Made by a program: the position numbers and the translations under genes. Positions 2,367-63,203 of a DNA stretch of 64,000 nucleotides are shown here, piece by piece (position 1 is the stretch's first letter; each line of letters opens with the position of its first letter). The DNA comes from Edaphocola flava (lineage in GTDB: Bacteria > Bacteroidota > Bacteroidia > Chitinophagales > Chitinophagaceae). The notes under the pieces were generated by a model. That model was not told the origin of the DNA. It searched no databases and worked only from the letters and a program-made list of their open reading frames with translations. The stretch spans positions 372,001 to 436,000 of the forward strand of contig NZ_SAIQ01000003.1 of the NCBI RefSeq assembly GCF_004118155.1, written 5' to 3'.

Positions 2367-4301
2367 ATGATTAACCTGACTTTTCCCGATGGTGTAGTGC
2401 GCAGTTATGAAAGCGGCATATCGGGCCTGGACGTAGCCAAGACAATTAGTGAAGGGCTGATGCGTAAAGTATTAGCCGTAGAGCTTGATGGTAAAACAAT
2501 AGATGCTTTTGGACCGATTACGACGGATGGTGCAATCAAATTCCTGACCTGGGACGATGCAGGTGGTAAATCTACATTCTGGCACTCTTCTGCTCACTTG
2601 CTGGCAGAGGCATTACAATCTTTCTACCCTGATACCAAATTCGCCATCGGTCCGCCGATCGAAAGAGGTTTCTATTACGATATTGATCTGGGCGATCAGA
2701 AAATCTCTGATGAAGACCTGCAAAAGATCGAGAAGAAAATGAAAGAGCTGGCCGGTGAGAAAAACCGTTACAGCCGTAAAGAAGTTTCAAAAGCAGATGC
2801 GATTACTTACTTCACCGAAAAACAGGATCCATACAAACTGGAACTGATCGATGGTCTGGAAGATGGTAACATCACTTTCTATACACAAGGTAGCTTTACC
2901 GATCTGTGTCGCGGACCACACATCCCGAACACCGGATTCATTAAAGCAGTAAAACTGACTAATATCGCTGGGGCTTACTGGCGCGGCGATGAGAAAAATA
3001 AAATGCTGACCCGTATTTACGGGGTTACCTTCCCTTCCAATAAAGAACTGGAAGAATATACTACCCTTATGGAAGAAGCCCGTAAGCGTGACCACCGTAA
3101 GCTGGGTAAGGAACTGGAATTATTTGCCTTCAGTGAAAAAGTAGGTGCCGGTTTGCCATTGTGGTTACCTAAGGGTGCTATGCTGCGTGAGCGCTTACAG
3201 CAGTTCCTGCAGAAAGCACAGATCGAAAGCGGTTACCTGCCGGTGATCACCCCTCATATCGGGAACATTAACCTGTACAAGACTTCCGGTCACTATGAAA
3301 AATACGGAGCAGATAGTTTCCAGTCTATCAAAACCCCACACGAAGGTGAGGAGTTTTTACTGAAACCTATGAACTGTCCGCACCACTGTGAGATCTATAA
3401 AACATCACCTAAGTCTTATAAAGACCTTCCGGTACGTTTTGCAGAATTCGGTACAGTATACCGCTACGAGCAGGCTGGTGAGTTACATGGTCTGACCCGT
3501 GTACGTGGCTTTACTCAGGATGATGCGCATTTATTCTGCCGTCCGGACCAGGTAAAAGATGAGTTCAAAAAAGTAATTGATCTGGTATTATATGTATTCA
3601 ATTCACTGGGCTTCTCTGACTATACCGCACAGGTATCTCTGAGAGATAAGGTGAACAGAGCTAAGTATATTGGTGAAGAAGCGAACTGGGATATTGCTGA
3701 AAATGCAATCCGTGAAGCCGCAGCAGAAAAAGGTCTGAACACTATTGAAGAGTACGGCGAAGCCGCATTCTATGGTCCTAAACTGGACTTTATGGTAAAA
3801 GATGCAATCGGCCGCAGCTGGCAGTTAGGCACCATCCAGGTAGACTACAACCTGCCTGAGCGTTTCGAACTGGAATATGTAGACAGCGATAACAGCCGTA
3901 AGCGTCCGGTTATGATCCACCGTGCACCATTTGGTAGTATGGAGCGTTTCGTAGCAGTATTGCTGGAGCACTGTGGCGGTAAACTGCCATTATGGTTAGT
4001 ACCGACTCAAGTAAAAATCCTGCCGATCTCTGATAAATTCATGGAGTATGCAGAGCAGATCAAAAAGGACCTGCAGAAGAAAGACATCCGTGTGGAGATC
4101 GACGACCGCCAGGAGAAAATCGGCCGTAAGATCCGCGATACAGAACTGGATAAAATACCGTACATGCTGATCGTTGGGGAGAAAGAAATGGAAAGCCAGA
4201 CCATTGGCGTACGTAAGCAATCTGTAGGCGATCTGGGTAGCCAGTCCGTTGAAGAGTTTGCTACACTGATCCAGAAAGAAGTAGAAGAAAAGATCGGATA
4301 A
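2367..4301 (+). CDS. thrS: Threonyl-tRNA synthetase
   Basis: This class II aminoacyl-tRNA synthetase charges tRNA-Thr and edits mischarged serine. The 644-residue protein has the full family layout: an N-terminal TGS domain starting MINLTFPDG, an editing (SAD) domain with [11 protein letters not shown] near residue 74 and CRGPH near 184, the catalytic core with [11 protein letters not shown] (zinc ligand Cys and motif 2 region) and [12 protein letters not shown], motif 3 [14 protein letters not shown], and a C-terminal anticodon-binding domain. The start is ATG 2367. An in-frame TTG 24 bases upstream is part of the promoter. In many bacteria thrS is followed by infC-rpmI-rplT, but here a strong terminator follows directly, so it is monocistronic. 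Confidence 0.98.
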
Positions 4302-4314
4302 ACAAAGAATAATC

Positions 4315-4354
4315 AAAAATAAAGCGCCTTCCTTAGGGAAGGCGCTTTATTTTT
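4315..4354 (+). terminator. thrS terminator, 18-bp stem
   Basis: Arms 4315-4332 and 4337-4354 pair perfectly around TTAG. The stem includes the A-tract and T-tract, and a run of T follows. It lies 13 bases after the thrS stop. Confidence 0.9.
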
Positions 4355-4360
4355 TTAACT

Positions 4361-4475
4361 GACTATCCGGATGCAGGTAACTAATTTATTCGTCCTTGAT
4401 TTTTCGGCGGTACCTTTTGCCTTCATGCAAAAGGTAGCAATCAATATAGACTTTGTTTCATTTAAGCGGATAATC
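4361..4475 (+). repeat. Foldback intergenic repeat, copy A (short form)
   Basis: The segment opens with GACTATCCGG and ends with GCGGATAATC, which are imperfect inverted copies of each other. The same ends bound copies at 17259-17415 and 34919-35394. Inside it has a TACCTTTTGC...GCAAAAGGTA hairpin and the shared right end (ACTTTGTTTCATTTAAGCGG). It holds no open reading frame and lies straight after the thrS terminator. Confidence 0.7.
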
Positions 4476-4554
4476 AGTTTTTTTTTAAAATATACAATCC
4501 GTTAATATTATATCACCAAAAAGTGCGTTATATGAATACATCAAACCCATAGAT

Positions 4555-6000
4555 ATGAATCGCATCTCTAAATGCTTAACCCTCTTAGGTGCTACACTGG
4601 CTGCTGCACCTGCACTTTTTGCTCAAACCGCCACCTGGAACGGCTCACAGAACAGCAACTGGAACAATGCCGCTAACTGGACCTGGTCTAACGCAGCCAA
4701 TGCGATTCCTGATGCTACGACTGATGTTATTATTGATTCAGGTGTAGTCCATATTCCGAGTATTGGCGGACAAGATTCCGTTCATTGTAAAAACATGTTA
4801 CTGATCGGCGAGCTTAACCTGGAAGGCAATGGTATATTGAACATCCACGGAACCTCCTTAAATAAGCCTGCAGGCAGTGAATATGGCTATATCAGCTCGG
4901 TGGAATCAGCCAGCGGACAGTATGCCCTGTCTACAAAAATTAATTTCACCAGCGATCAGGCCGTTACAATAAATAACATATACTTAGAAGCCGGCAAAAT
5001 TAATATTGATTGTGACAACCTCAACCTGGCCCAATCAAACCTAAATATCTATACAGAAATCCTGTTTTCAAAGTCCCCGGTGCCTTTTGGCAGTCCGGCT
5101 AAAGGTAATCTCATCATCGATACCAACAGCCTCCTGATCGTGTGTCCTCAGGTAACATACTCGATGCTCAACTGGTCGAACGGTCCGTTTACACAACCAC
5201 ATATTATTACCTCCCGCAATATCAAGGCAGGCATTGACCCGTACGGCACCATTCTCATTTACGATGTTGTTAATGACAATGGACTGCAAGGTACAGTACA
5301 AATACCGCTAAGTCCAAGTGCCAAATCGTTCAATTCCATAGCGCTGCAGTACTTTCAGGGAGATTATCCCTGGATCATTTCCTGTAGCAGAGGCCTACCC
5401 GAAACTTGCACCAATAATACCTTTGATAATAACGAGGCAGTACAGAATGTATATGATGTCTTTGCACTGGCCGATACCCTGGCTACCACTCTTACCACAC
5501 CAGCGCAGATCATGCTGGCCTTCAACAGAAGACCTATAGCGGAAGATGTATTATCAGGGTTTAATCCCAATCAAAGTGGTATAAAAATGTATTCCGTGAA
5601 CAATCAGGGTTGCTATGATCAGCTTTCGGCAAGCTCATCTGACACAATTCTGTTTCCTGAGTACACACAGGTCTTTTCAGGCCAGATAACCAAGGTGGGT
5701 AAATTTATCTTAGCACCTGCAGACCCCTCCTCTCTGCGGAATCTCAGCGCAATAGAAGGGTTGAACACTTATCCTAACCCGGTACAGCAGTCTCTTTCTT
5801 TATCTCTTTCTGCAAGCCACGATCCACTGAAAGCCAAGTTGCTTAATGTATTGGGACAAACAGTATGGAGTGCTGATTTTAAAGCCAATGCTCTACAGCA
5901 AGGATACACCATCAATACAGAATCATTACCGGCAGGAACCTATATACTGCAATTACAATCCGACACACAGTACACCAGTAGAAAAGTGATCAAGAAATAA
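4555..6000 (+). CDS. Secreted protein with type IX secretion sorting domain
   Basis: The 481-residue product has a signal peptide ending near ALFAQ (residues 1-23). A repetitive N-terminal region follows with WNGSQNSNWNNAANW, a motif seen at the start of many Bacteroidota surface proteins of beta-helix type. The middle is rich in beta strands and Asn/Thr/Ile with no recognisable catalytic motif. The C-terminal 75 residues form a Por-type sorting domain: YPNP near residue 405, a GQTVW segment, LPAGTYILQL and a basic VIKK end. It is therefore expected to cross the outer membrane by the type IX system. Its molecular function is unknown. Its stop codon lies in the stem of the shared terminator at 5996-6041. 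Confidence 0.8.
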   Translation: MNRISKCLTLLGATLAAAPALFAQTATWNGSQNSNWNNAANWTWSNAANAIPDATTDVIIDSGVVHIPSIGGQDSVHCKNMLLIGELNLEGNGILNIHGTSLNKPAGSEYGYISSVESASGQYALSTKINFTSDQAVTINNIYLEAGKINIDCDNLNLAQSNLNIYTEILFSKSPVPFGSPAKGNLIIDTNSLLIVCPQVTYSMLNWSNGPFTQPHIITSRNIKAGIDPYGTILIYDVVNDNGLQGTVQIPLSPSAKSFNSIALQYFQGDYPWIISCSRGLPETCTNNTFDNNEAVQNVYDVFALADTLATTLTTPAQIMLAFNRRPIAEDVLSGFNPNQSGIKMYSVNNQGCYDQLSASSSDTILFPEYTQVFSGQITKVGKFILAPADPSSLRNLSAIEGLNTYPNPVQQSLSLSLSASHDPLKAKLLNVLGQTVWSADFKANALQQGYTINTESLPAGTYILQLQSDTQYTSRKVIKK

Positions 6001-6041
6001 ATAACAAAGCCTCCGGAATTCCGGAGGCTTTGTTATTTATT
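5996..6041. terminator. Bidirectional terminator, 21-bp perfect stem overlapping both stop codons
   Basis: Arms 5996-6016 and 6021-6041 are exact inverted repeats around AATT. The left arm contains the TAA of the plus-strand secreted protein. The right arm contains part of the stop of the minus-strand glycosyltransferase. One hairpin ends both convergent genes. Confidence 0.9.
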
Positions 6042-7533
6042 ATTCAGGTTTAATACTTACTGCTTTACACAACCATACCCTCGCGCCAAGTTCTTCCCTT
6101 ACTTTCTGCAATACATATTGCTGGTGTAGCTCTTTTTCCATTTCCGGATCTTCTGTAAGTACATAATCTCCGGGTGCAATCTTTTTATCACGGCTATCCC
6201 ACACCTTATATCCCTTTCTTTCCGCCATGCGCATATAAAGAATCATCTGTGGATAGCACTTCTCATCATGTAGTACGATCTGCTTTAGCGTATCCTGTTG
6301 CAAGAACCGATCCCGTACATAATTACTGGTATTATAAATATTCAGAAAAGCGGCATCTTCTTTCCTCCAGCCATTATCGACCAGTATCGTTACATAAGTA
6401 ATCAGGAAAAGTAATGCAACAAGCACAAAACCTGCTTTACGGAAGACAGGCTTTATGACCGGATGATATAACGCCTGCATTAGCTTCAGAATGCCATAAG
6501 CACATAATACCGACAGGTAAGGATATGCCGGCGCTATGTACCAGAACAGTTTGGTTTTAGCGATAGAGGCTACTATAAAAAATCCTATTCCCATTAAAGC
6601 ACTGTATTGCAGTACCCTTGACGCAGCAGTGGCGGGCATCTTACGCATAAACCACAAGCCTATGGGTACAAATACAAACCAGGGCACAAACATACGCTCC
6701 ACAACATGTTTTAGGTAATAGTACCAGGGCTGTCCATTATCCTCATTCGCTACCAGGTAGCGCCCGCCCCACTCGTTCTCATTAACCGCTTTGATGTAGC
6801 CGGGATTATAATGTTCCCGTATCAGGTAAAACGGTACAGCTATCAGCAGAAACAGGATAATACCAATATAAAAATGCTTGCTTTTAAACAGTGCAGGCAA
6901 CTGTCTTCTGAATACAATATATAAGAGCATACAGGGACCAAACATAAGTCCCGCTGCACTCTTGGTCAGTACTGCCAGCCCCATACTGATAAAGGTAATA
7001 TACAGGTGCCGGGGCGAATTATGCTCGCAGTACTTCCATAAACTGATTCCGGCAATGGTGGTCCAGAGCACCAGTAAAGCGTCATAGTCTGCTGTACGGG
7101 CCACATGCATACCGGCATAACCTCTTGTGGTCACCAATATCAGGACCGTAAGTGCAGCCCATAAAAAGGATTTCCCCTGACGCTCCACAAATCGGAATAT
7201 CAATATGCAGGTGAGCATAGAGGCAACTGCAGAAGGAAGCCTTACAGCCCATTCATTCAGACCAAAAGTCTGGAGGCTCAATACCTGTATCCATATGAGT
7301 AATGGTGGTTTGGTATTCCACATATCCGGTACTCCGAAACAGTACGTGACCCAGAAGTTGCGGTTCGCGTACATTTCCAGGGCATTGGCCACCAGCCTGC
7401 CTTCGTCCCACTTACGGATCGTCACTGCATCCAGGCAGGCAAATAAGGGAATACCCACCATAATAGCCAGTAATAATACAAGCCAGCGATATAATTTACC
7501 TTGTGGCTGAAAATGCGCAAATCCGGGATTCAT
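6040..7533 (-). CDS. ArnT/PMT-like membrane glycosyltransferase
   Basis: This 497-residue polytopic inner-membrane protein belongs to the GT-C fold (PMT_2/ArnT-like), which moves a sugar from a polyprenyl-phosphate donor to a lipid or protein on the periplasmic side. It shows a first transmembrane segment, then the catalytic-loop acidic pair in RKWDEGR (Asp43-Glu44), then the second family motif HVARTADYD (about 140-148), about ten more hydrophobic segments, and a soluble C-terminal domain of about 110 residues. The substrate cannot be read from sequence. It is a single gene: a terminator for the neighbouring prenyltransferase lies just upstream and the shared hairpin lies downstream. Confidence 0.85.
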   Translation of the reverse strand: MNPGFAHFQPQGKLYRWLVLLLAIMVGIPLFACLDAVTIRKWDEGRLVANALEMYANRNFWVTYCFGVPDMWNTKPPLLIWIQVLSLQTFGLNEWAVRLPSAVASMLTCILIFRFVERQGKSFLWAALTVLILVTTRGYAGMHVARTADYDALLVLWTTIAGISLWKYCEHNSPRHLYITFISMGLAVLTKSAAGLMFGPCMLLYIVFRRQLPALFKSKHFYIGIILFLLIAVPFYLIREHYNPGYIKAVNENEWGGRYLVANEDNGQPWYYYLKHVVERMFVPWFVFVPIGLWFMRKMPATAASRVLQYSALMGIGFFIVASIAKTKLFWYIAPAYPYLSVLCAYGILKLMQALYHPVIKPVFRKAGFVLVALLFLITYVTILVDNGWRKEDAAFLNIYNTSNYVRDRFLQQDTLKQIVLHDEKCYPQMILYMRMAERKGYKVWDSRDKKIAPGDYVLTEDPEMEKELHQQYVLQKVREELGARVWLCKAVSIKPE

Positions 7534-17207: not shown

Positions 17208-17264
17208 ATACTCTATAATAAATAAAGCAGGACTTAAGGTCCTGCTTTATTTATTATAGAGTAT
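17208..17264 (+). terminator. Terminator of the miniprotein gene, 26-bp perfect stem
   Basis: Arms 17208-17233 and 17239-17264 are exact inverted repeats with loop TTAAG. The right end of the stem (GAGTAT) is also the first part of the terminal repeat of foldback copy B. Confidence 0.85.
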
Positions 17265-17415
17265 CCGCATGTAGTCAACTATTTTATTCGTCCTTTTGTC
17301 CGGCAACAAAAGGAACAAAAATGCCTTTGTTTTCATCAAGGCGAAAGGTAGCAAATAACTATAATTAGGCAACTAAAATATAACGCTAAATTTTGTTTCC
17401 TTTAAGTGGATACTC
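17259..17415 (+). repeat. Foldback intergenic repeat, copy B (intermediate form)
   Basis: Begins GAGTATCCGC (17259-17268) and ends GTGGATACTC (17406-17415), inverted copies with one mismatch. It contains the family hairpin GTCCTTTTGT...ACAAAAGGA and the tract TTTTCATCAAGGCG. It then jumps to the common right end (ATAACGCTAAATTTTG, CTTTAAG), lacking the central foldback of copies C and D. It has no coding content. Confidence 0.75.
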
Positions 17416-17439
17416 AGTTTTTATAAATTGAAAATAAGT

Positions 17440-22093: not shown

Positions 22094-22420
22094 CTACTGA
22101 TCTTGGTAACCATATGTACGTCCTTTTGTCCGGCAACAAAAGGACCAAAAGTGCCTGTTTTCATCAAGGCGATTGCTAGGCACCGGCATTTTGTACCGTT
22201 GCGTGCTTTGATCGTCTGAGCTTAACGTATGGTCCGTTCGCTGCTCAGCGATCGCATCTCCAACCAAAATGACTATCGCTGTGATGAAAACAACAAGCGA
22301 TCCGTACAAAACAGATCGCTTAGAATGGCCTTATAAATCCGGCGTCAAGAAAATCATTGGCTCGGTTGACAAAGTCGGGAACCAAAAGAGTAATATTGGG
22401 TATTGCTTGCTAAATGCAGG
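22094..22420 (+). repeat. Foldback intergenic repeat, copy C (long form, degenerate ends)
   Basis: From 22110 to about 22375 it aligns almost base for base with copy D (34950-35215). Shared parts are the GTCCTTTTGT...ACAAAAGGAC hairpin, TTTTCATCAAGGCGATTGC pairing with its complement near 22275-22290, an inner CTGAGC...GCTCAG helix (22216-22221 with 22243-22248), the AAGCGATC...GATCGCTT hairpin and GCCTTATAAATCCGGCG. The terminal TIR seen in A, B and D is not clear here. Short reading frames on either strand are products of the repeat and are not genes. Confidence 0.75.
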
Positions 22421-25494: not shown

Positions 25495-27436
25495 TCTGAA
25501 AAAAATATATACATACCTTCTGGCACTCTGCTGCCTGCTGCCCATCGCCCCGCAAGCGATGGGTCAAGCATTTAAAGACACCCTGAAAGACGTGTCTGTT
25601 ACCGAACAACGTAAGGTATACCAGCAGGATGTGAAAAGTACTTTCCAAACCGGACAGACCCGCATCAGTATAGACAGCATAACCCTGCTGCAATACCAGC
25701 AGCTCTCACTGGCCACACTGCTGGCACAGCAAAGCACCGTGTTTGTCAAATCGTATGGCATCAACAGCATGGCTACCCTATCCTTCCGCGGGGCCTCTTC
25801 GGCCCAGTCGGCAGTACTCTGGAAAGGTATACCCATCCTGAATCCGGCACTGGGTGTATCGGATGTGTCGATGCTCCAAACCGGACTGTTTGATAAAGTA
25901 AGCCTGCAATATGGCAGCAATGCCGCTATGCTGGGCAGCGGAAACGTAGGCGGATCACTGCTCCTGGAGCAGCAATCGGAATATGCAAAAGGCAATCACT
26001 ATCGTATAGGCCTGGGAGCCGGTAGCTATGGCCGTAAAGAAATCAATACTCAGATCATTCTGCAGCCTAAAAAATGGCTGATCAAATGGAATGCATTCGG
26101 TCAGCTGGCTAATAACAATTTTCCCTATACCGACCTGGACGGAGCGGCGGTACACACCAGCAATGCCGGGTTAAAAGCCTTTGGTAGTATCCTCTCTGCA
26201 ACATATAAGATAGATCCGACACAGCACATCAGTGCTGATGTATGGTACCAGCGTTATTATCGCGAGATACCCAAAGCCATGTTCGAAGACTTTTCGGCCA
26301 AAGTGCAAAGGGACGCTTCTTTACGCACTTTACTGCACTGGGAAAAACTGCATCGCCAGAACACCTTCTACGCTAAATTCTCCCTGAATAAAGAGGACCT
26401 GCATTATACAGACTCCTCCTTCCTGATGGATAACCGTAATACAGTATATCAGTATTACCAGGAACTGGGCTGGAAAAATAATTTTCATATCAGCGGCACA
26501 AAGGCCACGCATACCATCCTGGTCATGTTACCCTTTCAATATGCGACCATACACCTGCCGGGCAATGAACGGCAACAACAACAAAGACCGGCACTGGCCG
26601 CTGCATACAAGTACCTGAGTGGCAATGAGCGTCTGGGTATACAGGCCAATCTGCGCCAGGAATGGAATATGGGTACAGCCTTCCCCTTACTACCGGGTAT
26701 AGGAGTACATTATGCACTGGTGCGAAATGCACGCTGGCAATGGTCATGGGATGCTACCCTGCAGAAGACATACCGCTTGCCTACCCTGAACGAACTCTAT
26801 AACTTTCCGGGAGGCAATGAACAGTTAAAACCGGAACAGGGCTGGAACCGCGAGCTGGCCTATACTCTACACTGGGACAATACCAAAGGAACGATACAGT
26901 TTGACCAGCAGGCCAACTATTTCAACCGCCATATCAAGGACTGGATATACTGGCTGGGTGGCGCCATCTGGACTCCGCATAACATTGCCGAGGTGCATAA
27001 CCGCGGTATAGAAACGCATAACACCCTGCGCCTGCAACTGAGCAAACCGCTGCAGCTGCAACTGGGCCTGCGTACGGCATATGTACTCTCTACTACAGAA
27101 AAGAGTGATATGCCTAATGATAACAGTATTGGCAAACAGATCCCTTATACCCCACGATATAACGGACAGATCAATATAGGCCTGCACTGGAAACAGTTGT
27201 TTGTAAATTACAACCACACATATACCGGTTACCGCTTTATTACTACGGATGAATCGCTGTATACCCTGCCCTATAACCTGGGCAATGTACAGGCTTTATA
27301 TACCTTTACGGCAGGTGCTGTAAAAATGCAGGCCAGCCTGCAGGTACAGAACCTGTGGAATACGGCTTATGTAGTCATTGCGCAAAGACCTATGCCACAG
27401 CGCTATTGGGTTGCCGGACTGCAGTTTGAACTTTAA
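25478..27436 (+). CDS. TonB-dependent outer-membrane receptor
   Basis: The 652-residue outer-membrane transporter uses TonB energy to import a bound ligand. It has a signal peptide ending near MGQAF (about residue 30), a plug domain with STVFVKSYGINSMATLSFRG (core SMATLSFRGASSAQ near 96-109) and SLQYGSNAAMLGSGNVGG, then a beta-barrel ending in aromatic VAGLQFEL. No carboxypeptidase-like N-terminal domain and no SusD partner are present, so it is closer to BtuB/siderophore-type receptors. There is no riboswitch: its start overlaps dedA by 17 bases. The ligand is unknown. mnmE begins 10 bases after its stop. Confidence 0.88.
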   Translation: MAKLLSLKKIYTYLLALCCLLPIAPQAMGQAFKDTLKDVSVTEQRKVYQQDVKSTFQTGQTRISIDSITLLQYQQLSLATLLAQQSTVFVKSYGINSMATLSFRGASSAQSAVLWKGIPILNPALGVSDVSMLQTGLFDKVSLQYGSNAAMLGSGNVGGSLLLEQQSEYAKGNHYRIGLGAGSYGRKEINTQIILQPKKWLIKWNAFGQLANNNFPYTDLDGAAVHTSNAGLKAFGSILSATYKIDPTQHISADVWYQRYYREIPKAMFEDFSAKVQRDASLRTLLHWEKLHRQNTFYAKFSLNKEDLHYTDSSFLMDNRNTVYQYYQELGWKNNFHISGTKATHTILVMLPFQYATIHLPGNERQQQQRPALAAAYKYLSGNERLGIQANLRQEWNMGTAFPLLPGIGVHYALVRNARWQWSWDATLQKTYRLPTLNELYNFPGGNEQLKPEQGWNRELAYTLHWDNTKGTIQFDQQANYFNRHIKDWIYWLGGAIWTPHNIAEVHNRGIETHNTLRLQLSKPLQLQLGLRTAYVLSTTEKSDMPNDNSIGKQIPYTPRYNGQINIGLHWKQLFVNYNHTYTGYRFITTDESLYTLPYNLGNVQALYTFTAGAVKMQASLQVQNLWNTAYVVIAQRPMPQRYWVAGLQFEL

Positions 27437-27446
27437 AGATAAACAC

Positions 27447-28808
27447 ATGATGTATCAGGATACCATAGTAGCCCTGGCTACTGCCCCAGCCGCCGGGGCC
27501 ATCGGCGTCATCCGTCTTTCCGGAGACCAGGCTGTGCCTGTGGCCAATGCTTTATTTAAAGGCAAAGACCTCAGCAAGCAGGCTACGCATACCCTGCATT
27601 TCGGCACGATTATACGTCCGGATGGGGAGATTGTGGATGAGGTCGTGATCGGACTGTTCCTGGGCGGCAAGAGCTATACGGGGGAAGATACGGTAGAGAT
27701 CAGCGGACACGGATCTTTGTTCGTCCTCAACCAGATCATCGAATTATGCGTAGCGAAAGGCGCCCGTCTGGCTGCACCGGGAGAGTTTACGCAAAGGGCT
27801 TTCCTGAATGGCAAACTGGACCTGGCGCAGGCAGAAGCTGTTGCCGACCTGATTGCAGCAGAAAACAAGGCCTCTCATCAGGTTGCCCTCAGCCAGATGC
27901 GCGGGGGTATCAGTACCGAATTACAAGGCCTGAGAGATAAACTCATACAATTTACCGCATTGATCGAACTCGAACTGGACTTCTCTGATGAAGACGTGGA
28001 GTTTGCAGATCGTACGGCATTCAAGCAATTGATTGCTGATATACAGCGCCATACCGGACAACTTATTAATTCATTTGCCTATGGTAATGCGATCAAGAAT
28101 GGTGTACCCGTAGCCATCATCGGTAAGCCCAATGCCGGTAAATCCAGCCTGCTGAATGCTTTGCTGAAAGAAGAAAGAGCAATTGTAAGCAATATTGCCG
28201 GTACCACCCGTGATACTATCGAAGAGGTGATGAATATTGAAGGCATTCCTTTCCGTTTTATCGACACCGCCGGTCTGCGCGAAACAGAAGACGTGGTAGA
28301 GGCAATTGGTGTGAGTAAGGCTAAAGAGAAAATTGCACAGGCACAGGTTATCCTGCATTTGTACGAAGATAATGATACCGGATTATTACAGGAGCTGGCC
28401 GATAGCCTGAAGGGCAAGATCGTGTTCAGCCTGCGCAATAAAGTAGATACTCCTATTACCGAAGAGACTAATGCTGTGCAAGAGGAAGGTAATATGTATC
28501 TCATGGATATTTCCGCTAAAACCGGCTACCATCTTGAGTTGCTGAAGCAACAATTATTAGAATCGGTACGCGGCGGATTTGCGGACTCTGCAGTGATCAT
28601 TACCAATACCCGCCATAAAGAGGCCCTAATGCGGGCGCAGGAAGCGCTGGAATCGGTTACTCATGGTCTGGAGATCGGGTTGAGCGGCGATCTGCTGGCC
28701 TTCCATCTGAAAGATGCGTTACTGCACTTAGGCTCTATTACGGGTAAAATTGATATCGACCGCGATATTCTGGGTACGATCTTCGGGAAGTTTTGTATTG
28801 GGAAGTAG
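27447..28808 (+). CDS. mnmE: tRNA modification GTPase MnmE
   Basis: With MnmG it installs the carboxymethylaminomethyl group on U34 of several tRNAs. The 453-residue protein has an N-terminal folate-binding domain (DTIVALATAPAAGAIGVIR), a helical domain, and an embedded G domain with P-loop GKPNAGKSSLLN (about 226-237), GTTRDT (about 251-256) and DTAGLRET (about 273-280). The invariant C-terminal FCIGK is intact. The start is ATG 27447 (a second ATG follows immediately). A longer in-frame start would lie inside the receptor gene. It is probably cotranscribed with dedA and the receptor. Confidence 0.97.
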   Translation: MMYQDTIVALATAPAAGAIGVIRLSGDQAVPVANALFKGKDLSKQATHTLHFGTIIRPDGEIVDEVVIGLFLGGKSYTGEDTVEISGHGSLFVLNQIIELCVAKGARLAAPGEFTQRAFLNGKLDLAQAEAVADLIAAENKASHQVALSQMRGGISTELQGLRDKLIQFTALIELELDFSDEDVEFADRTAFKQLIADIQRHTGQLINSFAYGNAIKNGVPVAIIGKPNAGKSSLLNALLKEERAIVSNIAGTTRDTIEEVMNIEGIPFRFIDTAGLRETEDVVEAIGVSKAKEKIAQAQVILHLYEDNDTGLLQELADSLKGKIVFSLRNKVDTPITEETNAVQEEGNMYLMDISAKTGYHLELLKQQLLESVRGGFADSAVIITNTRHKEALMRAQEALESVTHGLEIGLSGDLLAFHLKDALLHLGSITGKIDIDRDILGTIFGKFCIGK

Positions 28809-29190
28809 CGGAAAAGCTGGATTGGGAGCATCAACAGATCACGGATTTTGCTCCGTTCTAACTCGGCATAGGCCTCTGTTGTCGAATTATTCTATGGTGC
28901 TGGCCTACCAGGAAAAAGTATATTGGCTACAGATCGAAAAATTGATGCACATTATCCAGCTGCAGGCATAGCAAGGGTAAGGCTTTTGCCCTGTGTACGA
29001 TAAGCAGGTCCCAGGCCAATCCAATACGAGAGCACAATAGATCTTTTAAGCTCCCCGCCTCCCCAGTTCTGCTTTTTAGGCTTGTGCAGGTGTGCCCAGG
29101 CCAGGTAAATGTCATAGGAGGGCAAAAGCTGAATGTATTTTGAGGGATTGTATACCGTTGAACTTTCGCTCCAGTATTCTTTTAAAAGCA
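28809..29190. other. Noncoding spacer, possibly holding decayed coding sequence
   Basis: Right after the mnmE stop, another frame (28788-28859) reads YWEVAEKLDWEHQQ and a few more residues before a stop, with a protein-like composition but no start. On the minus strand a 95-codon frame (28952-29239) starts inside the hairpin at 29191-29239 and resembles nothing I know. I see no promoter box in the right place for either. It may be a gene remnant or plain spacer. Confidence 0.25.
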
Positions 29191-29239
29191 ATGATGTATT
29201 TAAATAGCCGCTAAGACTACGGCTATTTAAATACATCAT
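29191..29239. repeat. 20-bp perfect inverted repeat (hairpin)
   Basis: Arms 29191-29210 and 29220-29239 are exact inverted copies around a 9-base spacer. Unlike the terminators it has no T-run directly after either arm, although ATTTTGG follows on the plus strand. It could end the mnmE transcript from 380 bases upstream or the minus-strand methyltransferase transcript. Confidence 0.6.
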
Positions 29240-29312
29240 ACAATTTTGGCTACATTAAAACAAATACAGACTTTTGAACAAGTCTGCTATGGCAATGGAT
29301 ACAGGCACAAAT

Positions 29313-30074
29313 TTAACTGCGGTATTTCTTCTGAAATACTTTGGATATTTCCAACTTATACTCGCTGAGGCTTGCCTTTCCTTTAAGCATCCGAACCAGC
29401 CTGTTGATACGAGTAATCTTGGTTTCCAGCAGATCAGGGTGCACCAGGGGGAGTATTACATTCTTAGACTGCTTAGCCCCGGGAAAACGGTTAAGTAAGC
29501 GTTCTGTTTCTGTTGTATTCCGGGTATTTACGGCCACGAACATATTCTGTTTATACCAAAATTTCACTTCAGGAATATTCCAGATCAATGGACGGATCAC
29601 ATCATAGCAATCATAGCCTTTAGCATTAAACAGCTTAACCCAAAAGTCGGGCCATTGCTCGTTCAGATGGTTCTGCCCGCCCTGGCCTGGGATAGCGGCA
29701 GAGAATACCACAACATCCGACATACCGGTAAGATCACCAACAATTTTTTCAGCGTATTTTTCATAAAGATGTTCTGCAAACTCAAAACTGATCGAGAGAT
29801 CAAACCGTTCTTTCACCTGGAGATCTTCCATTAAGTTTTTAAGTAACAAGTCATCTCCTTTCAGCTTCTGCAATGTATTATTGCTCCACTCTCCGTCGAT
29901 GCCTAAGACTTTTTTTACGCCGCACTCCTTGAATTTATACAGGAAATTACCAATACCGCAACCCAGGTCCGATACAGATTCCGGAGCAAAAAGGTCATAT
30001 AAAATGGGAGCGATTACTTCGGGGTCCACGTCATTATGCTCGTCACTAATGTGCAAATACACGTCTTTAAACAT
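29313..30074 (-). CDS. Class I SAM-dependent methyltransferase
   Basis: The 253-residue Rossmann-fold methyltransferase has motif I VSDLGCGIGNFLYKF (about 34-48), an acidic end of strand 2 in VLGIDGEW (about 57-64), and DLSISFEFAEHLYEKYA at motif IV/post-IV. The C-terminal third is basic and not conserved in my view. Weak similarity in layout to methyltransferases of glycan or FkbM-type loci exists, but no glycan genes are nearby, so the substrate is unknown. The start is ATG 30072-30074. A TTG further out at 30101 belongs to the -7 box. It stands alone, flanked by non-coding AT-rich spacers. Confidence 0.78.
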   Translation of the reverse strand: MFKDVYLHISDEHNDVDPEVIAPILYDLFAPESVSDLGCGIGNFLYKFKECGVKKVLGIDGEWSNNTLQKLKGDDLLLKNLMEDLQVKERFDLSISFEFAEHLYEKYAEKIVGDLTGMSDVVVFSAAIPGQGGQNHLNEQWPDFWVKLFNAKGYDCYDVIRPLIWNIPEVKFWYKQNMFVAVNTRNTTETERLLNRFPGAKQSKNVILPLVHPDLLETKITRINRLVRMLKGKASLSEYKLEISKVFQKKYRS

Positions 30075-30098
30075 AAAAAATTGAGTATTTATATATTT

Positions 30099-30106
30099 CA
30101 AAAGTA
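30099..30106 (-). promoter_or_regulatory. -7 promoter box (TACTTTTG, minus strand) for the methyltransferase
   Basis: CAAAAGTA on the plus strand reads TACTTTTG on the minus strand. It is 24 bases upstream of the ATG at 30074. Confidence 0.5.
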
Positions 30107-30562
30107 GAATAAAAGGTAAATATAGCTATTCATTGTTTAATTCTTTGCGCTAAAAATAAGCTACAGCAAGTACAGACTCCTTTGCGCCTATATGTTCTGT
30201 TCTCTCTAACTCAAACTATTTGTCTTCACTACGCGTCACATCATATCGCCCGCAGCGGAGATATTGCTATGTCACTATAGGACTACACTTTATCAGGAGA
30301 TTTCTTGCGACACCCGTTTGCTCAAAATGAGGTAGTACGGAACACTATTTTCTGAGCCTTTGGACATTATAGTACCACCAGCCTTCCTCCATCAGCGGCC
30401 CATCGCCTGAGATTTTTATGTTATTTTTTCAATTATTTACATAAATAAAATTTCAAAATACACCTGTAGTAGTTTTACTACTATTTAAATTAAATAATAT
30501 ATATTTATATGTATTATTTAATTGATTATTAATTTGTTAAGTAAATTTATTTGTGAAATAAT
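30107..30562. other. AT-rich intergenic spacer; no gene seen
   Basis: About 450 bases between the divergent methyltransferase and LamG genes. I find no reading frame with coding character, no tRNA and no clear hairpin. The last 140 bases are extremely A/T-rich and lead into the promoter at 30563-30594. Confidence 0.5.
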
Positions 30563-30594
30563 TTGCATTTCACCCATTGAAGTGAGTATATTTG
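30563..30594 (+). promoter_or_regulatory. Promoter of the LamG/FN3 secreted protein (TTG ... TATATTTG)
   Basis: TTG 30563-30565 and TATATTTG 30587-30594, spacer 21 bases. The ATG is 35 bases downstream of the box at 30630. In-frame codons upstream of 30630 are before the promoter and cannot be translated from it. Confidence 0.65.
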
Positions 30595-30629
30595 GACCGC
30601 AAAAATTAATCCACTTTCAATCCCCTTGT

Positions 30630-34336: not shown

Positions 34337-34570
34337 AAAATCTGCTGTTTGGTTTCAATGATATAACAACAAGGATGATGCCAGAAAAGTGACTAATGAA
34401 TTGACAGGCATCCAAAACAATCAATTCAATTTACTAATCAACAACTTAAGTATATACAAACAACAAATAACATTAAATACAATCTAAACAAAATCCACTG
34501 AACGGGGCTTTAAAATCCACAATTCGGGGAAAATGGGGAATTTTGGGAATACAAGTACAAGGTCAGCCTG

Positions 34571-34864
34571 GATTATAATGCCATCAGAACGAATTATGAC
34601 ACAGCCAGAACAGATTATGATAACAGCAGAGCGGAATATTGATTAGTCAGTATGGATTATTAAGACATCATAATAAATTATAATGTAGTCAAAATGAATT
34701 TCTATGTCTTTAGAATGAATTATGATGCAATAAGAATGGATTATTATGCCATCAGAACGAATTATGACACAGCCAGAACGGATTATGATAACAGCAGAGC
34801 GGAATATGATAACAGCAGAGCGGAATATTGATTAGTCGGTATGGATTATGCTGTAGATAATGAA
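34571..34864 (+). repeat. 21-bp tandem repeat, 14 units
   Basis: Fourteen consecutive 21-base units run without indels from 34571 to 34864, each beginning [GA]A[TA]TAT and mostly ending AGAACG-like. Units 1-4 (34571-34654) and 9-13 (34739-34843) are near-identical blocks, pointing to a duplication of several units. Read in frame, the sharper units encode heptads such as DYNAIRT, NYDTARTand DYDNSRA, but units 4, 5 and 13 carry in-frame stops. An open frame exists upstream (from 34514) without a start codon. It is either a decayed heptad-repeat gene or a noncoding minisatellite. Confidence 0.85.
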
Positions 34865-34906: not shown

Positions 34907-34918
34907 TTAATTTAAACG

Positions 34919-35394
34919 GACTATCCGCACGTAGTAACCTATCTTGTCCGTCCTTTTGTCCGGCAACAAAAGGACCAAAAATGCCTTTGTTTTCATCAAG
35001 GCGATTGCATAGCACCGCCATTTTGTACCGTTGCGTGCATTGATCGTTTGAGCTTAACGTGTGATCCGTTCGCTGCTCAACGATCGCAGCTCCACTCCAA
35101 AATGGCTATCGCTGTGATGAAAACAATAAGCGATCTGTACAAATACAGATCGCTTAGAAAGGCCTTATAAATCCGGCGTCAAGAAAATCATTGGCTCGGT
35201 CGATAGAGTTGCAAACCACTGTCTGAACGAAGTGAGTTTGCGTTTGCGACCGACCGACACATTGATTTTTAGCCAGGGATTTATACAGCCTTGATTTTTT
35301 GGCGCTACCTTTTGCATCAAGGTAAAAGGTAGCAAAAGATATATAGGCTACTTAAATTATAATGCTAAACTTTGTTCCCTTTAAGCGGACACTC
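34919..35394 (+). repeat. Foldback intergenic repeat, copy D (full-length, 476 bp)
   Basis: Terminal inverted repeats are GACTATCCGC (34919-34928) and GCGGACACTC (35385-35394). The inside shows nested pairing: hairpin GTCCTTTTGT...ACAAAAGGAC; TTTTCATCA...TGATGAAAA; GCCATTTTG...CAAAATGGC; TTGAGC (35048-35053)...GCTCAA (35075-35080); then the hairpin AAGCGATCTGTA...TACAGATCGCTT and a right part with TACCTTTTGC...GGTAAAAGGTA. Copies A and B look like internal deletions of this form. It has no gene of its own and ends 18 bases before the dnaJ stop. Confidence 0.8.
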
Positions 35395-35412
35395 GGTTAA
35401 TTAAATTTCTAT

Positions 35413-44410: not shown

Positions 44411-44455
44411 CTCCATATACACTGCAGCAAGGCTGCAATAGATATTACTTAAGTA

Positions 44456-44914
44456 TTAAGGTTGGAATATGAGCTGTGCAGTACTCTGACAGTTTGTAGC
44501 AGGTACCCAGATAGCTTTTGTAGGTCCGGCAGGACTACAACCAGGCAGTATGGTCACATAACCATAAGTAGTAGGCAGTCCGCAAGGAGGCTGTCCTACA
44601 GTACCACCACCAGGACTGCACACAGCCGGGCCATTCAGAATTTTAGCACCCACAATTCCTTTAGGTATTGAAGGAGGATACGTACCGCCAAGGGTTGTAC
44701 TATTACCATAACTAAGGGTGGTCATAGGCGCAACCATAATGGTCGCACTGGTATAGGTCGAAGCACAAGGTCCGCACACTTCCCCACCGAATATCACACA
44801 TTGTTGTGGCCATGGGGTCTGGTTTTGGATACGCAGGCTGTATGCAGATGGGGCCTGTGCCCAGATAGCAACTGGCAGGATCATGGCCAGCAAAAAGAAA
44901 TATAACTTTTTCAT
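44456..44914 (-). CDS. Secreted Cys/Pro/Gly-rich protein with CGPC motif, paralog 1
   Basis: The 152-residue protein has a signal peptide (MKKLYFFLLAMILPVAIWAQ, residues 1-20). The mature part has cysteines at 39, 47, 50, 99, 111, 126 and 142 or close to these, including CGPC at 47-50 and a GGGTVGQPPCG turn region. It lacks a thioredoxin fold signature (no WCxxC context, no cis-Pro), so CGPC may be a disulfide or metal site. It is about 78 percent identical, by my count, to the next gene, and both 5' and 3' flanks share short matches. No family is recognised. Confidence 0.65.
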   Translation of the reverse strand: MKKLYFFLLAMILPVAIWAQAPSAYSLRIQNQTPWPQQCVIFGGEVCGPCASTYTSATIMVAPMTTLSYGNSTTLGGTYPPSIPKGIVGAKILNGPAVCSPGGGTVGQPPCGLPTTYGYVTILPGCSPAGPTKAIWVPATNCQSTAQLIFQP

Positions 44915-45049
44915 AAAAATTTAGAGGAGTTAAATGTGTAAAAATAGTGTGTATTAAACCGGTACATTGCAAGGCAATCGGTGGTGCCCGTTTTGTTCAC
45001 AGCATGAGGTTTCCATATACACTAATTCCAAATTTGAAATATCTGGTCA

Positions 45050-45508
45050 TTATGGCTGGAAAATCAGCTGCGCAGGAAGCTCGCAGTTCTGAGCAGGTAT
45101 CCATGTTGCTTTGGTAGGTCCGGCAGGAGTACAACCCGGCACTATGGTAACATAACCATATGAAGGTGGTAAACCACAAGGAGGCTGGCCTACAGTACCG
45201 CCACCAGGGCTACATACAATTGGTCCGTTCAGGATCTTAGCCCCTACGATTCCTTTATTCATTGTTGGAGGATAACTACCGCCCAATGGTGTACTATTAG
45301 GATAGGTAATAGTACTCATCGGTGCAATAGTCAATGTAACGCTGGCGTAAGTTGATCCGCAAGGTCCGCAAATCTCATCACCAAATATAACATATTGCTG
45401 AGGCCATGGCGTTTGATTGAGTACTCTCAGGCTGTACGCCGATGGCATTTGTGCCCACATAGCAACTGGTAGGATCATTGCTACTAAAAAGAAGTATAAC
45501 TTTTTCAT
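45050..45508 (-). CDS. Secreted Cys/Pro/Gly-rich protein with CGPC motif, paralog 2
   Basis: The 152-residue paralog of the gene at 44456 has the same length and no gaps. The signal peptide (residues 1-20), CGPC (47-50), PPCG and the late single cysteines are all kept. The extra Cys39 of paralog 1 is a Tyr here. It lies directly upstream in the same direction, so the pair is a local tandem duplication. The 385-base region upstream (45509-45893) is shared with a divergent aminotransferase gene. The function is unknown; the strong conservation of Cys and of the GGGTVGQPPCG part suggests both copies are under selection. Confidence 0.65.
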   Translation of the reverse strand: MKKLYFFLVAMILPVAMWAQMPSAYSLRVLNQTPWPQQYVIFGDEICGPCGSTYASVTLTIAPMSTITYPNSTPLGGSYPPTMNKGIVGAKILNGPIVCSPGGGTVGQPPCGLPPSYGYVTIVPGCTPAGPTKATWIPAQNCELPAQLIFQP

Positions 45509-57306: not shown

Positions 57307-57377
57307 CGGTTACCAACACTCCTATACAGCTACTTTTGTTACATATACCTATTACTCGGTTTTCTGCATCCCAACCG

Positions 57378-57476
57378 GCTGTCACTTTGATGAAAACAAA
57401 AAGCGATCTGTACTATACAGATCGCTGAACTGGACTTACACATCCGGCATTATAAAATTTATTGGCCCTGCCGATT
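57378..57476 (+). repeat. Foldback intergenic repeat, copy E (partial)
   Basis: It aligns with the 3' part of copy D from about 35104: GGCTGTC...TTTGATGAAAAC, then hairpin AGCGATCTGTA...TACAGATCGCT (57402-57426) and ACATCCGGC...ATTGG. The left half and the TIR are missing. It lies within a sulfur gene cluster, between the TSUP gene and the MBL gene. Confidence 0.65.
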
Positions 57477-58269
57477 ATTTGAACACAGCTTCTTTCAAAA
57501 GTATATATATACCCATTATCAATACAAACCAACCAAAAGCGGGTTTCAGCTTTGCGCCGTCAATCCTGGAAGAAAGAAAACTCCCGACCAGTAATCCAGC
57601 AATAGCAATGCTGGAAATGATTAATAAAAAGTGCCAATCTATAGGATGGCTTTGAAAAGAGAAAGAGAAGCCGATAAGGGAATTGATGGATATAATAAAC
57701 AATGAGGTACCCACAGCTGTTTTAATGGGTAGCTTAAGCATATTGACCAACGCTGGTATAATCAGGAATCCGCCACCAGCACCGATCAGGCCGGTTACAG
57801 TGCCTACTCCTATACCTTGTAAGCATACAGAAAAGAGTGGTATCGGGCTTGACTTCATTCTATCTGCATCAGGTTTCTTTTTCTTTATCATGCTGATGGA
57901 GGCAAAAATCATAAGTATGGAAAATAGCAGCATCAGCAGCATATTCCGGGTAAGGACGAATGTGCCCAGATGGAACAGTTCTGCAGGGATGGCCGGTACT
58001 AGATACTTCCGGGTGAGCAATACCGCTGCAATAGAGGGAATACCAAAAAATATGCCCATCTTAAAATTTACCAGTCCTTTCCTGATGTAAGTAATAAAAC
58101 CAACCAGGCTGGTAATACCTACAATAAAGAGTGAATAAGTAGTTGCCAGCACAGTATCTGTGCCAAATAAATAAACTAAAACCGGAACGGTAAGAATACT
58201 GCCGCCCCCACCGATCAGTCCAAGAGATATGCCAATCAGTATGGCAGCCAGGTAACCTGCTAAATACAT
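57475..58269 (-). CDS. TSUP-family (TauE/SafE) anion transporter
   Basis: The 264-residue polytopic protein has about eight hydrophobic segments and the internal duplication of the TSUP family: GISLGLIGGGGSILTVPVLVYLF (core LGLIGGGGSILTVP near 17-30) and its second copy GTVTGLIGAGGGFLIIPALV (core TGLIGAGGGFL near 159-169). TSUP proteins move sulfite, sulfonates, thiosulfate or sulfoacetate. Its place next to the dioxygenase suggests sulfite or thiosulfate export. It lies 60 bases after the Crp/Fnr gene, in the same direction. Confidence 0.9.
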   Translation of the reverse strand: MYLAGYLAAILIGISLGLIGGGGSILTVPVLVYLFGTDTVLATTYSLFIVGITSLVGFITYIRKGLVNFKMGIFFGIPSIAAVLLTRKYLVPAIPAELFHLGTFVLTRNMLLMLLFSILMIFASISMIKKKKPDADRMKSSPIPLFSVCLQGIGVGTVTGLIGAGGGFLIIPALVNMLKLPIKTAVGTSLFIISINSLIGFSFSFQSHPIDWHFLLIISSIAIAGLLVGSFLSSRIDGAKLKPAFGWFVLIMGIYILLKEAVFK

Positions 58270-63127: not shown

Positions 63128-63172
63128 TCAGTTGTACCGGATTTGCCTTTCACATGGCGACAGTAAAAAATA

Positions 63173-63203
63173 AAAAGGGGACATGTATTACATGTCCCCT
63201 TTT
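63173..63203. terminator. Bidirectional terminator between the serine hydrolase and the T9SS gene
   Basis: Arms 63173-63186 and 63190-63203 form a perfect 14-bp stem with loop ATT and A/T tracts on both sides. The flanking genes are convergent. Confidence 0.85.

Follow-up and report, generated by a model that had tools for sequence, protein, structure and literature searches.

A probable MITE family of an IS1595-group transposon in Edaphocola flava carries a structured module shared across Bacteroidota

REPINs are built as an inverted pair of hairpin units, and the hallmarks of the REPIN/RAYT system are the absence of target duplication and a RAYT gene flanked by the same repeat. Element D of Edaphocola flava resembles REP/REPIN units in its inverted hairpin-unit pair, its extragenic position and its high copy number, but neither hallmark is seen: D has 8-bp duplications and IS1595-type ends, and the resident RAYT gene is flanked by other palindromes, its own. 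Transposons of the IS1595 family have, like the autonomous relative of D described below, the transposase domains PF12762, PF12760 and NF033547, whereas D is without a transposase. ISApl4 of the IS1595 family is reported to make 8-bp A/T-rich repeats like those of D, but its ends (GGGGCTGTACTAGA) differ from the ACTGA... of D (PMC12561309). BrickBuilt of Porphyromonas gingivalis is, by its report and a review (PMC4596501; PMC10969869), like D a short, multi-copy, intergenic element with IS-like terminal repeats; it contains a minisatellite, whereas D has a pair of inverted structured modules, of which one is phylum-wide, and empty sites known from comparison. In the open-licence literature searched we found no description of MITEs of the IS1595 group, nor of MITEs in Edaphocola.

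The window, that is the whole 64-kb stretch of DNA analysed, holds D and four relatives. Taking our observations together, we consider D highly likely to be a MITE belonging to an IS1595-group transposon, with a captured structured module and later exchange of tracts between copies. The copies and the ends of D are the following.

4358 to 4478, plus strand: copy A, an internal deletion with both ends kept (profile match and flank comparison)
17256 to 17418, plus strand: copy B, an internal deletion with both ends kept, without a matching duplication
22100 to 22384, plus strand: copy C, a fragment covering model positions 16-304 (profile match)
34908 to 34915: left target-site duplication of D, TAATTTAA, 7/8 identical to the right one
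34916 to 35397, plus strand: copy D, a full-length 482-bp non-autonomous element (nhmmer with a 30-copy model)
34916 to 34928, plus strand: left terminal inverted repeat of D (family consensus ACTGACTATCCGC)
35370 to 35397, minus strand: right terminal inverted repeat of D, equal at 23/28 positions to the ends of the autonomous transposon
35398 to 35405: right target-site duplication of D, TAATTAAA, pairing 7/8 with the left one
57364 to 57483, plus strand: copy E, a fragment covering model positions 177-299 (profile match, 67 bits)

D scored 580 bits over positions 3-483 of the nhmmer model, of whose 30 members it is itself one. The sequence-only reading had taken A and B for internal deletions of D, and C and E for partial copies. 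The model junctions agree with this: A fuses positions 2-42 to 374-483, B is D minus an internal part (6-91 fused to 400-483), and C and E are fragments in which no recognisable ends were found. The flanks of A (TTTTTTTA / TTTTTTTT) match at 7/8 positions, inside a T run, and those of B (TATTTATT / TTTTATAA) show no match between both sides. Copy C is present at the same site in the sister species (L172). No ORF of at least 80 aa lies wholly within D, in line with the earlier remark that the copies carry no transposase. Elsewhere in the window, degenerate 21-bp tandem repeats (family D1) occupy 34563-34849, immediately before D; the minus strand at 45592-45628 matches the Rfam DUF805b RNA (38.1 bits); and two 300-bp stretches, 44455-44754 and 45049-45348, are 74% identical and likely represent adjacent paralogous genes.

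We then searched the E. flava assembly (G000; 3.54 Mb, 15 contigs). With D as query, scoring 40 of 101 first-look candidates gave at least 68 matches at E ≤ 1, of which 40 were long (E ≤ 1e-100) and the remaining 28 mostly short, to D's own palindromes. The 30-copy profile, after merging of matches, gave 68 copies or fragments (C and D included) in 60 fetched stretches; with A, B and E, read in the window only, the total is 71, a lower bound, as the stretches were drawn from around match places but not all of them, and four more places of the R1 repeat described below fall outside them. Between 33 and 34 copies are full-length, the best of them up to 94% identical to D; across 62 full-length copies (34 in E. 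flava, 28 in its sister species) identity averages 89% and reaches 97.7%. Length is 474-484 bp in 29 of 33 full copies, and the terminal-end pattern occurs 145 times in the genome versus 6 times for its reversed control. Both ends share the 13-bp repeat ACTGA[CG]TATCCGC, so the inverted repeats of about 10 bp reported earlier are real and form its core. The D family is thus multi-copy and not a product of chance: D is not single-copy, and the ends of its copies still align in the wider set. It shows the features by which MITEs are recognised, namely a length within 50-1000 bp, many copies, no transposase, terminal inverted repeats and a target-site duplication of constant length.

Evidence for transposition came from the flanks of the copies. 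We compared, in 33 full-length E. flava copies, the 8 bases preceding ACTGA with the 8 following TCAGT: they agreed at 6.06 of 8 positions on average, versus 3.70 when permuted (2,000 permutations, maximum 4.64). Twelve of the 33 agreed at 8/8 in register; when one-base shifts were allowed, 18 reached 8/8 and seven 7/8, the other eight staying at 6/8 or below. Position by position, between 21 and 28 of the 33 copies agreed at exactly 8 positions, as against 3-16 at the 14 adjoining positions printed. The duplicated target is AT-rich, about TWAWWTWA. We also compared E. flava with its sister species Edaphocola aurantiacus H2 (G001), which has 42 matches at E ≤ 1e-8 (41 in E. flava) and flanks about 95% identical. 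Nineteen E. flava copies could be placed in G001 stretches, which had been picked around G001 copies; 14 of these sites were occupied and five were not. Of the latter, three are clean empty sites at which the target is present once (L072 vs L170, L045:4502 vs L105, L055:2501 vs L152), and the other two involve partial copies with ambiguous junctions. Conversely, placing G001 copies in E. flava gave 17 rows for 15 distinct G001 loci, one of which has an empty site (L174). The window itself contains two empty sites.

29227 to 29231: empty site at which the sister species has a full-length copy and a 14.7-kb transposon (flank matches)
63158 to 63177: empty site directly after a terminator-like hairpin; the copy of the sister species lies at L174 2997-3483

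For the first of these, window positions 25699-29231 and 29227-30605 match the two sides of the filled site. At L042/L143, each species has an insertion; the two lie about 7 bp apart, are oppositely oriented, have different duplications and are probably independent. The checks proposed with the sequence-only reading have therefore yielded both 8-bp target-site duplications and empty sites, three in the sister species and two in the window, in support of its suggestion of a non-autonomous family.

We looked for a transposase with the same ends. IS1595 transposases (PF12762) gave 18 matches across all five genomes of the genus searched. In the sister species, contig C3 holds a 14,678-bp transposon with ACTGAGTCTCCGCTTTTAGGAAACAAAG at both ends and the duplication TAATTGAT on either side; its 28-bp ends match the D family, its duplication is of 8 bp, and its transposase matches PF12762 (1.6e-22), PF12760 and NF033547 IS1595 (3.6e-55). 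It adjoins the end of a full-length D-type copy. Compared with its end, the right end of the family consensus is equal at 25/28 positions, the right end of D at 23/28 and the left end of D at 17/28. A transposase gene with matching ends, also among the earlier proposals, is thus present in the sister species. This transposon (G001:C3:246386-261063; L269 1387-12601, L157 28-3490) further carries cargo, including a TIR-domain protein (PF13676; PADLOC PDC-S66 6.4e-104, ThsB-like 1.3e-49), a retropepsin-like protein, a LuxR-type response regulator and, at 966 aa, a protein whose secretion-tail match stays below threshold; it may be a defence-carrying transposon.

At E ≤ 1e-30 the G001-type transposase matches 8 of 396 genomes of the order and was not found in the window's genome. 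The closest of the other relatives, 50% identical, comes from a genome of another family (G345), where it is part of a 2,468-bp IS whose ends are perfect (AATGACTATCCGCATATAGGAACC) and which has the duplication ATATCTTA. G490 has such an end on one side only (19/22), and in G307 inverted ends similar to these but outside the pattern (AATGACCGTCCG) flank the transposase gene; no D-like ends were found at four of seven other loci of transposase relatives. For a 22-position end pattern, drawn up after both transposons had been seen, the six remaining loci of transposase relatives scored 15-19, with block shuffles reaching up to 18. At 12 other loci, which surround 10 of the 18 PF12762 matches of the genus, it reached at most 17/22. 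Most loci extend only 1.5 kb from the gene, so that farther ends would escape.

In the window's genome, three of the four IS1595 transposases are without D-like ends in stretches of 6.5-8.5 kb. The fourth is carried by L058 (G000:C9, about 2560-6767), a candidate autonomous D that proved instead to be a 4.2-kb IS1595-type transposon inside a D-type copy, with ends GGCATTAATATAC and the duplication CTATTTAT. No facing pair of ends 0.6-4 kb apart was found among the first 100 of the 145 end matches. Among the matches listed for G002-G004, a single facing pair has 1-3 kb between its ends (G004:C6:154241/155808), with three mismatches per end, which is the control level. DDE_Tnp_1 (PF01609) is absent from the window's genome, and G001-G004 hold a single match, in G003. 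Ends shared with a transposase-bearing element were thus found in G001 and G345 and not in the window's own genome, which means that their source was lost there or acted before the species split. From the matching ends we infer that the G001 transposase, or a relative lost from the window's genome, moved the copies.

The inside of D is structured. D folds more stably than its shuffles (z -9.3 and -10.0 on the two strands), and it is built of two inverted modules, with hairpins facing outward, and a central hairpin.

34951 to 35126, minus strand: module 1, an outward hairpin with a long foldback arm (inverted repeat I20 and folding)
35127 to 35156: central hairpin, AAGCGATCTG...CAGATCGCTT (folding)
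35153 to 35334, plus strand: module 2, a member of a phylum-wide structured repeat (model R1; 139.2 bits, E 1.2e-32, a score that is not independent, D being among the 12 sequences from which the model was built)

The foldback arms of module 1 lie at 34987-35008 and 35105-35126, and its match to R1 is weak (minus strand 34952-34981, 17.1 bits, E 0.007). Covariation within the genus was weak (5 of 98 pairs) because the copies are too similar, so that a cross-genus set was needed. In relatives of module 2 from other genera whole helices are swapped with pairing retained. In 12 such sequences, from which the structure was itself drawn by hand, 93.7% of cells pair and both sides change in 11 of the 28 pairs; covariation scores 0.325, versus 0.135 when shuffled (none of 500 shuffles reached it), and pairing drops to 58.6% or less once the partner strand is slid. 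In 67 R1 matches, aligned to the R1 model and hence leaning towards it, both sides change in 25 of the 28 pairs (score 0.552 versus 0.154). The modules gave no match in our searches of Rfam 15, and D as a whole gave nine Rfam matches at E up to 10, all far under the gathering scores. The other half of the earlier guess, a structured element, therefore also holds, in that D is built from structured modules of which one covaries strongly.

The inverted pair of hairpin modules could be read as a signal for the RAYT of this genome, D then moving as a REP/REPIN-like unit. The genome does encode one RAYT (NF047646 6.3e-23, with a PF01797 match), and PMC6006769 describes a Bacteroidetes subclass of RAYTs whose flanks hold atypical secondary structures that recur at other places of the genome. 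However, D has precise 8-bp duplications and DDE-type terminal repeats, the 3.3-kb RAYT locus contains neither an R1 match at E ≤ 1 nor a D-profile match, the RAYT is flanked by GC-rich palindromes of its own, and G002 and G004 have the modules with no PF01797 match. On the strength of the duplications and of these flanks we rejected the RAYT as mobiliser of D, a route that we regard as most improbable. The palindrome in question, CACACGCGGGGCGCGTGCG, stands on both sides of the RAYT gene (L238 1318-1908, G000:C8) and is presumably its own REP.

Next, we considered how the copies differ from each other. Across an alignment of 59 copies from E. flava and its sister species, pairwise r2 at 43 variable sites drops from 0.239 at less than 10 bp to 0.022 at 100-200 bp (permuted 0.017), and pairs showing all four gametes rise from 37% to 79-87% past 50 bp. 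Recurrent mutation alone would be independent of distance and hence leaves this decay unexplained. Loss of linkage within about 100 bp suggests ectopic gene conversion in short tracts between the copies, which would also account for the rarity of near-identical copies. Such exchange bears on the covariation of module 2, since template switching or hairpin-directed gene conversion, by keeping palindromes perfect, would yield paired changes in stems that are not selected, and the copies do seem to trade tracts. Yet conservation across genera extends to unpaired motifs (GTTAAGAAAAT, TTGATTTTTTGG) and to an asymmetric internal loop, which palindrome correction leaves unexplained. We judge it unlikely, though deserving some weight, that the covarying stems are unselected.

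The sequence-only reading had placed every copy at a gene end and most of them close to a terminator. Five of the 68 copies lie at stretch edges; the other 63 occupy 35 convergent, 23 tandem and 5 divergent spacers, none lies within an ORF by simple ORF calling, and the nearest gene boundary is a stop codon for 52. Element-free spacers of the same stretches and the window, a background biased by the choice of stretches for their copies, comprise 23 convergent, 73 tandem and 43 divergent ones (3,608, 10,707 and 9,066 bases). Closeness to terminators did not clearly exceed the background: a terminator-like hairpin lies within 25 nt of 16 of 22 informative copies versus 12.4 expected from AT-rich positions within the same spacers (P = 0.057; median P 0.12), the 11 of 33 copies without a scanned hairpin, among them D with its 9-nt loop, being excluded. 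Terminator targeting is thus not clearly supported beyond a preference for AT-rich gene ends.

The same distribution, with 52 of 63 copies nearest a stop codon and 35 between convergent genes, would also be expected if the modules were the functional part, a gene-end RNA acting as 3' stabiliser or terminator to which mobility is incidental; the strong covariation of module 2 and the folding z-scores of D fit this too. Against it, the 23 copies between tandem genes lie in both orientations (10 along the gene direction, 13 opposite), AT-rich targets together with selection against insertions in promoters and coding regions yield an equal pattern, and R1 units elsewhere are only mildly biased to stops (29 stop versus 20 start, of 49). 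We give such a gene-end function a small chance, and keep to a MITE with structured cargo as the reading of D.

R1 extends far beyond this MITE. It matches (E ≤ 1e-4) 64 of 247 Bacteroidota genomes, in 38 of 122 genera and 15 families, the genome count being a lower bound since 9 candidates per genome were scored under strict filters. The spread is patchy: of seven listed genomes in the window's own family two match and five do not. G274 has nine dispersed R1 copies with sharp ends, seven of them measuring exactly 165 bp from GGCC to the terminal hairpin; their flanks are unrelated, they are without terminal repeat, and no target duplication was detected (9 copies, P = 0.59). G261 has a tandem array of six R1 units spaced 309-486 bp (L214 5250-7407), with no ORFs of 110 aa or more between units, and in G209 a unit lies next to a shortened, putatively IS1182-like ORF. 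Nothing except a tRNA was found in Rfam at 11 of 20 fetched R1 loci, nor any description of the repeat in the open-licence literature searched. In G004 the spacers of L193-L200 are crowded with several related hairpin modules (in L199, for example, TCCACTTTTTGCTTGTCCAAAAAGTGGA then CCCCGAAAATCG), possibly further subfamilies of the R1 class.

The R1 unit may be mobile in its own right, or may be what is left of several transposon families. Tentatively, and at somewhat less than even chance, we see in module 2 a representative of an as yet undescribed class of structured mobile elements, phylum-wide and about 165-230 nt long, with a long bulged stem, a GTTAAG internal loop and a terminal hairpin, which would spread alone or in tandem without terminal repeats or target duplication, perhaps via single-strand DNA or RNA, and would also be captured in transposon derivatives.

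In the history that we favour for D, the transposase of the large autonomous relative would bind the ends ACTGA[CG]TATCCGC and insert the short element at 8-bp sites rich in A and T, about TWAWWTWA, generating the 8-bp duplication. Module 2, which comes from a repeat family far wider than the MITE, was probably captured by it. After insertion, copies would swap short tracts by ectopic gene conversion, leaving a family that is similar yet mosaic.

What is novel here is the structured cargo of D and not its MITE status itself. Having duplications, empty sites and an autonomous transposon that matches it, this MITE family is a clean system for IS1595 mobilisation in trans, and its loss of linkage over about 100 bp makes ectopic conversion between dispersed bacterial repeats measurable. 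R1 is found in about one quarter of the sampled Bacteroidota genomes, some with dispersed copies and others with tandem arrays, and a class of this size in a major phylum, with very strong covariation and no Rfam match in our searches, merits a name.
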